Shown: piece after piece, positions 29,716 to 64,000 of the stretch
How positions within the stretch are numbered: the first letter of the stretch is position 1
Layout of the letters: the number at the start of each line of letters is the position of its first letter
NCBI RefSeq assembly: GCF_000244895.1
Contig: NZ_CM001441.1
Coordinates: 4,120,198-4,184,197, forward strand
Direction: 5' to 3'
DNA: 64,000 bases
DNA from: Desulfosporosinus youngiae DSM 17734
GTDB taxonomy: Bacteria > Bacillota > Desulfitobacteriia > Desulfitobacteriales > Desulfitobacteriaceae
Notes under the pieces: generated by a model
What the model was told of the DNA's origin: nothing
The model's database searches: none
The model's input: the letters and a program-made list of their open reading frames with translations, nothing else
Program-made: the position numbers and the translations under genes

Positions 29716-30062
29716 ATAGATGGCCAAGACAAAATTGGTTCTGTTATTATAATTAATGATACTACAGAGAAGAAAAATCATGAACAATACTTGAAAGCCA
29801 AAGCTTATAGTGATGGACTTACAGGGCTATTAATATAGAAACGGGCTTAAATTGCCTTTGATCGAATAATAAATAACACTGATGCTGCTTCAACTCAGCT
29901 TATATCAATACTTATAATAGATATAGATAGGTTTAAAACTATAAATGATACATATGGTCATATAAATGGAGATAAGGTGCTTCAGCATCTTGCAAAAGTA
30001 CTGGTAGAAGAAATTAGATGTGCAGATGTTATTGGCAGATTAGGTGGAGAAGAATATGCTTT
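29716..30062 (+). pseudogene. Decayed PAS-GGDEF (diguanylate cyclase) remnant
   Basis: Translation of the plus strand gives the end of a PAS domain (IGSVIIINDTTEKKNHEQYL), then a GGDEF start (AYSDGLTGLL), two stop codons, IIDIDRFKTINDTYGHINGD, and finally IGRLGGEEYAF. The last motif is the active-site loop. The frame is broken and both ends are missing. The 5' part stops at the coiled-coil frame and the 3' part runs into the end of hutI. The sequence is more AT-rich than its neighbours. It is a clear dead gene. Confidence 0.8.
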
Positions 30063-30120
30063 TTCAACCAGATACTTGCTTACCCCTATCACTCTTACCA
30101 GCTGTCGGATTGTAACACCA

Positions 30121-61419: not shown

Positions 61420-61830
61420 TCACGAACCTTTCGTTTCGTCATACAAATAATCAACCACCGGTTCAAGGGGGTCGATAGCGTCATCCTTTACTTTATAATT
61501 TAACCTCTTCCCAACAAGACTTGAGAGAAATAGACTTATCTTTTTGTTTTTATCGTTAAAAAGCTGGGGAAGGTCGTGTTCAACAACTTGAATGATTCCT
61601 TCGGAATTGACGGTTAACTTACAAAGCAAGTCTGCCACATCCCACTTATCTTCATTGTAGTAGTCCTTAAGAACAAAGGTTATAACTCCATCCTCTTCGA
61701 ACATTTCAGAATCTACATAGCCTTCCACAGGCATAACTTCTTTCAGCATCTTCTTTAATTCTTCAAGTTCAATCGTCAGCTCTTCAAAGTAACCATCTTT
61801 AATTTTTTGAATAAAACCATTTTCTGTCAT
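61420..61830 (-). CDS. Unrecognised acidic protein, 136 aa
   Basis: This short acidic cytoplasmic protein begins MTENGFIQKIKDGYFEELTIE and has no membrane helix or known motif. It has a GAGGAGATTG ribosome site upstream and a good terminator downstream, so it is a real single gene. Alternating hydrophobic strands (DGVITFVLKDYY, DKWDVADLLCKLTV) suggest a small alpha/beta fold. Confidence 0.7.
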   Translation of the reverse strand: MTENGFIQKIKDGYFEELTIELEELKKMLKEVMPVEGYVDSEMFEEDGVITFVLKDYYNEDKWDVADLLCKLTVNSEGIIQVVEHDLPQLFNDKNKKISLFLSSLVGKRLNYKVKDDAIDPLEPVVDYLYDETKGS

Positions 61831-62006
61831 ATCAATCTCCTCTTTGGATACCTATATTAACATTATAAGCATTCATAAAAAAGCTATACATCAATCGAGG
61901 GCTTCAGGGGACCGACATTTACATTGAACACTTGATAGCCCTATGTTAGACTGAAAAAAATGATACAACCGTCATTCCGGATCATCTATAAGGAGGATTT
62001 TATACT

Positions 62007-62909
62007 TTGGACAATGTCAGTATCATTAATATGCTGCTGGTTTTATCCACCTTGGTGATATTATATTTTTTGTTGTTAATCGCCAAAAGAACGCGGAAAA
62101 AGCAAATTCATTATGCTGTTTTAAGTATGACGGCCAGCATTCTCCTATGGAATATGGCGGTATTATTGTATATAACGTTTGACAATGTCCCCTGGATACT
62201 GGCAGTTTGTGAGCGGCTGTACTTTTTGGGTACGATTCTTGTATCAGTTTCCATATTATTTACCGGGTTAATATTTGCCCGAACCAAAATAAAATTCACA
62301 TGGAAGCATGCACTGCTGTTTGTTGTTCCTGTCATCTCTATTGGGGTGCTGCTTACGAACCAGAGTCATCACTTGTTTTATACTGTCTTTAGCCTGATAC
62401 CCTCCAAGCAAAATTTTGGTATCTATTTTACGATACATACCATATATTCCTATTTGTGTATAGGGATTGGCTTGGCCTATCTTGTGATTTTCTCCATAAA
62501 AAACTATGGCGTTTTCTCCAAACAATCCTCGTTAATAGGTATTGGAATTATGATTGCGCTGATCATGGATGCGATCAGCACATTTAAAATCTTTGATTGG
62601 TCAACGGCACTCGAAAATATTGCCTTTGCCGTGACGATTAGCTTTTTTGTGATAGCCACGGTTAAGTTTGATTTCCTGAACGTAATACCCATCGCCTTGC
62701 AAACCGTTGTTGATTTGATTTCTGACAGCTACGTGGTGATTGATGAGGATCTTGAAATCATTGATTACAACCAAGCTTTTGTAGGCGATTTTAGCGGGGT
62801 ATCCAGGAAAGCCGACATTATGGCAATAATCAAAAAGAATTATAGTGATCTTGATGTTAAGAGGTTCAAGGGCTTTCTGGACGAAGCTGTTCGTGAGCAA
62901 AAAAAGTGA
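62007..62909 (+). CDS. Diguanylate cyclase, N-terminal part (7TM sensor plus start of PAS)
   Basis: This 300-aa frame has about seven membrane helices (residues 5-220), as in the 7TM sensor regions of Gram-positive kinases and cyclases. The first half of a PAS domain follows (VVDLISDSYVVIDEDLEIIDYNQAF). It ends at a TGA directly after GAG CAA AAA AAG. The PAS domain continues in the -1 frame from 62906. The heptamer A-AAA-AAG is a classical -1 slippery site, so the two frames are either joined by programmed frameshifting or split by loss of one A. The start is TTG 62007 with AAGGAGG well placed. Confidence 0.8.
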   Translation: MDNVSIINMLLVLSTLVILYFLLLIAKRTRKKQIHYAVLSMTASILLWNMAVLLYITFDNVPWILAVCERLYFLGTILVSVSILFTGLIFARTKIKFTWKHALLFVVPVISIGVLLTNQSHHLFYTVFSLIPSKQNFGIYFTIHTIYSYLCIGIGLAYLVIFSIKNYGVFSKQSSLIGIGIMIALIMDAISTFKIFDWSTALENIAFAVTISFFVIATVKFDFLNVIPIALQTVVDLISDSYVVIDEDLEIIDYNQAFVGDFSGVSRKADIMAIIKKNYSDLDVKRFKGFLDEAVREQKK

Positions 62910-63631
62910 GCTTTGAAATGCCCAAGCCTGTGAATGAAGCTATTGTTTATTATAGGGTGGAAATCACCCCCATTTATGTCAGCGGCAATCCTATAGGAAC
63001 TATCATTTTAAAAAAGAATATTACAGAGCATAAAAATAATCTGATAGAGGTTATGCAGCTCAATGAGAGGCTGCAGAGTCTGGCAACCCGGGATTGGCTG
63101 ACGCAGTCTTATAATAGATATTTCTTTGATGAAAGATTGCAGCAGGAGATTGACCTCGTAAACAGGCTGCAGGCCTATGGTCAGGAATCAGAAAAAAGTG
63201 TCAATAATTTTGGGTTAATCATGTTTGATATAGACTATTTTAAAAATTATAATGATAATAATGGGCATTTGGCGGGAGATGAGCTCTTACAGACAATCGT
63301 TACGGTTGTTAAAGGGGTATTATATCCGACTGATATATTATGCAGATACGGCGGAGAAGAGTTTGCCGTTATTTGCTGCCATACCTCAGAGAAAGGGCTT
63401 GAAATAGCTGCGGAAAAGATCAGAAAGACTGTGGAGGATTATGATTTCAGGTTTCAGGATAAACAGCCGGGTGGCAACCTGACAGTCAGCATTGGCGCAG
63501 CATACTGTTCAACCCCTAACGTTAATAAAAAGGATTTAATAACAAGAGCTGATAATGATCTGTATTTAGCCAAAAGCAGCGGAAGGAATAAGGTTGTTTA
63601 TAGTCCTGTTTTTATCGTAGATATCCCATAG
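62906..63631 (+). CDS. Diguanylate cyclase, C-terminal part (PAS end plus GGDEF)
   Basis: This 241-aa continuation in the -1 frame has the end of the PAS domain (VEITPIYVSGNPIGTIILKKNITEH) and a full GGDEF domain. That domain includes LATRDWLTQSYNRYFFDERL, IMFDIDYFKNYNDNNGHLAGDELL, and the active-site loop CRYGGEEFAVICC. It therefore should make cyclic di-GMP if translated in fusion with the sensor. No ribosome site precedes the GTG at 62906, so independent translation is unlikely. Confidence 0.82.
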   Translation: MSFEMPKPVNEAIVYYRVEITPIYVSGNPIGTIILKKNITEHKNNLIEVMQLNERLQSLATRDWLTQSYNRYFFDERLQQEIDLVNRLQAYGQESEKSVNNFGLIMFDIDYFKNYNDNNGHLAGDELLQTIVTVVKGVLYPTDILCRYGGEEFAVICCHTSEKGLEIAAEKIRKTVEDYDFRFQDKQPGGNLTVSIGAAYCSTPNVNKKDLITRADNDLYLAKSSGRNKVVYSPVFIVDIP

Positions 63632-63776
63632 CTCTGTTATTTACATAATTCCATTTTTATACTCTTTTACACAATCGACACCAGATCATACTTATTTGTT
63701 CTACCGACAGCCATGCATCTTCTGCACCATATAGTGTAAAGCCAACTCGTCTGTTTCTAACATAACCCTCATGAAC

Positions 63777-64000
63777 TCATAATGTTTGGAGGATTGTTGG
63801 CAACACATTGCCATCTATATCGCAAATTTTTATTGCCCCCAGGCCGACAGGCAGAACAACCGCAAAGGGTTTTGTATGATCAATATCAATAATTTCGACA
63901 GTGTTGCCATTGGCAATTTCAATTTTTATAACCTGCTGCTTGTTCATTGAAAGATAAACCTTTTCCTGACGTCCTTGTGCTTTGTATTCAGCAATACCTT
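63777..64000 (-). CDS. 3' end of an unrecognised gene running off the window
   Basis: The last 73 codons of a minus-strand gene lie here. The segment is beta-rich (QEKVYLSMNKQQVIKIEIANG, then TVEIIDIDHTKPFAVVLPVG) with ICDIDGNVLP before the stop. The family is not recognised. The 145 bp between this stop and the diguanylate cyclase show no clear features. Confidence 0.6.
   Translation of the reverse strand, partial: GIAEYKAQGRQEKVYLSMNKQQVIKIEIANGNTVEIIDIDHTKPFAVVLPVGLGAIKICDIDGNVLPTILQTL

Follow-up and report, generated by a model that had tools for sequence, protein, structure and literature searches.

A diguanylate cyclase gene of Desulfosporosinus youngiae broken at an A tract is probably a young frameshift pseudogene

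We analysed a stretch of 64,000 nucleotides from Desulfosporosinus youngiae DSM 17734, referred to below as the window, in which a gene for a membrane-sensor diguanylate cyclase is divided between two overlapping reading frames (Table 1). The original prediction described a sensor frame ending GAG CAA AAA AAG TGA and a second half continuing in the -1 frame, and both the sequence and the open reading frames confirmed this layout. In frame 0, the run of seven A is followed by a G at 62906 and by the stop codon TGA at 62907-62909, and the GTG start of the downstream frame overlaps this stop as GTGA.

Table 1. Features of the split cyclase gene, in window coordinates
Feature	Position	Strand	Details
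DNA similarity to L032 (95.9%), gene and about 90 bp upstream	61918..63604	+	
Shine-Dalgarno-like AAGGAGG	61990..61996	+	10 nt 5' of the TTG start; read from sequence
Upstream frame: 7TM sensor and first part of PAS	62007..62909	+	300 aa/codons; TTG start, ends TGA
HisKA_7TM in upstream frame	about 62037-62690	+	Pfam, E 6.2e-34
A run (7 A), site of the frame break	62899..62905	+	1 A fewer than in six intact relatives, whose run is in frame
Downstream frame (-1): PAS remainder and GGDEF	62906..63631	+	241 aa/codons; GTG start
GGDEF domain (PF00990) in downstream frame	about 63083-63592	+	Pfam, E 3.7e-39
GGEEF catalytic motif (RYGGEEF), intact	63350..63364	+	sequence

The description of the two halves as sensor and PAS/GGDEF held in so far as HisKA_7TM comes first and GGDEF second, but the junction seems to cut the PAS domain. 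An intact relative, L019, gave a weak PAS_4 match at residues 236-343 (20.4 bits, below the cut-off of 23.1), and since this match spans residue 300, the break seems to lie inside the domain and not before it. The GGEEF loop was undamaged, as had been predicted, and the GGDEF domain with its GG[DE]EF motif identifies the product, at the sequence level, as a diguanylate cyclase. Domain order and catalytic motif are those of the 7TM-PAS-GGDEF membrane diguanylate cyclases (HisKA_7TM with GGDEF), unlike which the split gene has its frame broken inside PAS. The genome contains 24 GGDEF matches at E 0.001, including the split gene and one broken remnant. A decayed GGDEF remnant lies in the same window at 29725-30075 on the forward strand; it covers GGDEF positions 1-86 only and contains two stop codons, a TAG and a TAA. 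When 61700-63800 was scanned against Rfam for a structured leader, the only matches were an snRNA (17.4 bits, gathering threshold 33) and a snoRNA (17.5 bits, gathering threshold 90), which were taken as chance matches.

Related loci were then compared at the junction. Combined searches provided 12 loci from a scan of genome contigs, which finds close relatives, L003 from a search of 40 relatives, and L032 and L033 from 82 genomes of the class. These were counted as 15 distinct relatives (L019-L030, L003, L032 and L033; 55-96% protein identity), excluding L034, which duplicates L025 (100% over 3885 bases), as well as L004, L017, L035, L036 and matches below 30% identity. In 14 of the 15, both halves lie in one frame and the junction has no stop. 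Eight A are present in frame in six of them (L019, L020, L021, L022, L023 and L032), while the eight other intact copies (L003 and L024-L030) have no 8-A run and read, for example, CAA GAA AAA or CAG ACA ACG. L025 and L029, the latter a partial copy that begins at residue 140, have seven A, yet stay in frame through a different following codon. The closest copy, L032, has eight A and an open frame of 553 residues. Three distant copies (L004, L017 and L035; 38-46% identity) are single frames of 614-632 residues, and L036 lies at a contig end and is uninformative.

Intact single-frame homologues whose run differs in length were found (L019-L023 and L032), as is characteristic of homopolymer-indel pseudogenes. 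The original prediction had offered two readings, a programmed frameshift or a run that had lost one base, and had held that eight A residues in relatives would make the break an artefact of sequencing or recent mutation. The longer run in six relatives, the closest copy among them, and the uninterrupted reading through 14 of 15 support the loss of a base.

The remaining relative, L033, belongs to the same family but to a different genus and carries an identical CAA AAA AAG TGA break. With one genome per species, the 7-A break occurs in two (window and L033) and eight A in frame in six. Protein matches placed further frame changes of L033 at about residues 26-33, at 73-75 and near 200, and in the alignment its three lesions appear as the loss of 2 bases, one extra base in a run of T and an insertion of 2 bases. 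From these lesions, we read L033 as a decayed pseudogene and as no demonstration that the 7-A state works. In the tree, the window copy and L032 (8 A) group together with an ultrafast bootstrap of 100 and L033 (7 A) lies outside, a placement that would make two contractions, or one contraction and one re-expansion, equally parsimonious.

Searches of 28 other genomes of the genus, some of them incomplete, gave no match at E 1e-40 for the downstream half and none at E 1e-60 for the upstream half, which does have weaker and more distant matches. The lack of a close copy in these 28 members suggests horizontal acquisition. By DNA identity, the nearest copies are L032 (in another genus of the family) and L019 of Desulforamulus aeronauticus (91.3%), followed by L033 (89.8%) and L021 of Clostridium aminobutyricum (89.4%). 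Overall, L019-L024, L032 and L033 share the cyclase gene with the window at 80-96% DNA identity in distantly related hosts. Between distant hosts, the similarity is mostly limited to the gene and some 10-60 bases 5' of it. About 90 bases 5' of the gene are common to the window, L032 and L033, an additional 74-base upstream piece is common to L019 and L033, and longer flanks are common to the pairs L032/L033, L020/L023 and L028/L030. Similarity confined mostly to the gene suggests transfer with little flanking DNA, and the cyclase gene seems, from these alignments, to travel without its neighbours. A scan of viral contigs, which finds close relatives only, gave no match that would indicate phage carriage, and in a plasmid collection the single match was partial, with 25.7% identity over 54% of the query.

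At the 3' end, positions 63605-63631, where the downstream frame has its final 8 codons and its stop, fall outside the DNA similarity to four aligned relatives. The distant relative L028 still aligns at the protein level to residue 241. The 3' end of the gene may have been altered on transfer.

A dnaX-type slip heptamer had been proposed at the junction, and A_AAA_AAG is indeed present in frame 0 at 62900-62906; it has the form X_XXY_YYZ and is followed directly by a stop. The heptamer alone, however, is common in this genome, and intact L025 has it in frame at the same place with no stop. Counted over stop-free frames of 200 codons or more, in-frame copies of A_AAA_AAG numbered 18 in a 400-kb sample from the window genome (95,647 codons), 7 in the window itself (16,413 codons) and 27 in a congener sample (111,607 codons). 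A stop directly after the heptamer was found in only one of 25 cases (18 + 7), which was the split-gene junction. Since CAA AAA AAA G minus one A automatically gives A_AAA_AAG, part of the 'dnaX-type' look follows from the loss itself.

We also looked for elements that could stimulate a frameshift. Many studies have used a spacer of 5-9 nt, according to PMC5009743. No 3' structure was found 5-9 nt past the heptamer, where an 81-nt fold gave a z of -0.54; folds of 40, 59 and 100 nt gave z values of 0.96, -1.01 and 0.38, and a 15-nt piece remained unfolded. The best fold by z (59 nt) contains a stem of -11.9 kcal/mol about 15 nt past the heptamer and was equalled by 35 of 200 shuffles, so that the suggested stimulatory structure after 62909 does no better than shuffled sequence. 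In dnaX, the Shine-Dalgarno-like stimulator lies about 10 nt upstream. No such element was seen by eye about 10 nt 5' of the present heptamer, where 62886-62892 reads GCTGTTC; AAGGG (62868-62872) and AGAGG (62860-62864) end 27 and 35 nt 5' of the heptamer, respectively, and a weak GAAG (62883-62886) lies nearer, at 13 nt. For tRNA-Lys, the genome carries genes of anticodon TTT, at all 4 of the loci scanned, and one gene of anticodon CTT. According to PMC5009743, a single lysine tRNA reads both AAA and AAG in about half of the bacteria known, including E. coli. We infer that a second lysine tRNA would lower the slipperiness of the site. In the literature searched for programmed frameshifting in a diguanylate cyclase, the single paper returned was on resequencing errors in Vibrio fischeri.

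To estimate the age of the break, we counted the changes that arose after the window copy and L032 diverged. The window copy has 14 silent and 8 amino-acid-changing changes and L032 has 14 silent and 10 changing; these small numbers are unambiguous changes, counted after removal of codons 1 and 301, of codons with gaps and of 14 ambiguous sites. The two halves were otherwise intact, as had been claimed: both are open, and neither shows decay beyond the intact sister, which, on so few changes, suggests that the lesion is young. On these small numbers, the split gene bears no apparent sign of long decay. Constraint no looser than in an intact sister is also expected of a still-expressed gene.

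Taken together, these results favour, with a probability of about 0.67, a membrane-sensor diguanylate cyclase gene (7TM, PAS, GGDEF) that was probably acquired horizontally, underwent a recent one-base contraction of its A tract and is now a young, ordinary frameshift pseudogene. Slipped-strand replication would have shortened the tract. Translation would then halt within the PAS domain to give a membrane protein of 300 residues that lacks the cyclase domain, and the cyclase would be essentially lost; a little frameshifted protein may persist, or a little of a GGDEF fragment with truncated PAS, produced when ribosomes reinitiate at the overlapping GTG. PMC8538453 reports that about 12.3% of A/T tracts of 8 or more were mutated in Salmonella enterica, a rate at which an A-tract contraction would be an ordinary event. 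The split gene resembles the homopolymer A/T indel pseudogenes described in that work (AT 8+mers) and in PMC3711429 (GeneTack pseudogene and singleton classes) in its one-base A-tract contraction, in having intact homologues in relatives and in a frame transition that is not conserved across genera. It differs from them in that its break looks very young, with no other frame lesion in either half and amino-acid changes no more numerous than in the intact sister copy. Given the 24 GGDEF matches in the genome, loss of this cyclase need not be costly.

It is conceivable that sequencing or assembly gave the run a wrong length and that the organism itself carries an intact gene. Such errors classically arise in homopolymer runs, and the open halves, the constraint no looser than in the sister copy and the intact closest relative would all fit such an error. 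We scanned for stop-free frame pairs of at least 150 codons each that were broken at runs of at least 6. One homopolymer-junction candidate was found in 400 kb of the window genome (about 7% of the genome), equal to the one found in a congener sample of 400 kb; within the window itself, the split-gene junction was the only candidate. The two sample candidates are putative frame breaks at G6 runs, at L040:17729-17734 (window genome) and L060:2060-2065 (congener). Widespread assembly trouble was thus not seen in the 400-kb sample relative to the congener, and the lack of an excess of homopolymer breaks favours a real mutation over an error, though it is not proof. Further, L033 has the 7-A break alongside two lesions outside homopolymers, and contraction of this tract therefore appears to occur in nature. 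We consider a real mutation more likely, and an error unlikely.

Less probable still is a 7-A allele that is real but leaky, with ribosomal or transcriptional slippage, or reinitiation at GTGA, yielding some full-length cyclase or free GGDEF fragment. A_AAA_AAG was much more shift-prone in E. coli than four other heptamers compared alongside, as reported in PMC5009743, the TGA is overlapped by a GTG, and the halves show no decay. Against this stand folds similar to those of shuffles, the missing Shine-Dalgarno-like element at dnaX spacing and the presence of tRNA-Lys CTT. Transcriptional slippage is cited for A runs longer than 7 in PMC3711429, and a reinitiated product would be a partial PAS with no sensor.

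We regard as decidedly improbable the idea that the A tract is a slipped-strand contingency site, which toggles the cyclase on and off by phase variation. It would agree with the recurrence of the 7-A break in the window and L033 beside eight A in frame in six relatives, and with a tree that places contraction plus re-expansion on a par with two contractions. However, the tract is only 7-8 bases long, eight intact copies have no 8-A run, so that it is not kept across the family, and L033 bears three further lesions. It is equally far-fetched that a cyclase gene spreading among distant Firmicutes carries a reversible A-tract switch that is off in the window genome and L033 and on in L032.

A dedicated dnaX-type -1 frameshift that sets the dose of cyclase, as originally proposed, was rejected on folds, conservation, upstream sequence by eye and tRNA-Lys content and is very unlikely, close to negligible: the heptamer, its phase and the stop directly after it are right, but 14 of 15 relatives lack the frame transition, the frame is unbroken in the nearest copy and in most of the tree around it, stimulators were not found, and L033, which alone shares the broken junction, has three more frame lesions. 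The likeness to E. coli dnaX is A_AAA_AAG in the 0 frame, here with the frame-0 stop directly after it. Unlike dnaX, the split gene has no better-than-shuffle structure, no Shine-Dalgarno-like element at the dnaX spacing and no conservation, and tRNA-Lys CTT is present. In addition, the dnaX frameshift gives the short form, whereas a shift in the split gene would give the long one.

The break is best regarded as a homopolymer frameshift of an ordinary kind. The loss of one base from CAA AAA AAA G makes a perfect-looking A_AAA_AAG, and the motif alone is therefore weak evidence of recoding. For annotation, the two open reading frames should be entered as one frameshifted gene, a possible pseudogene, and not an example of programmed frameshifting; beyond this, the finding is of little importance.
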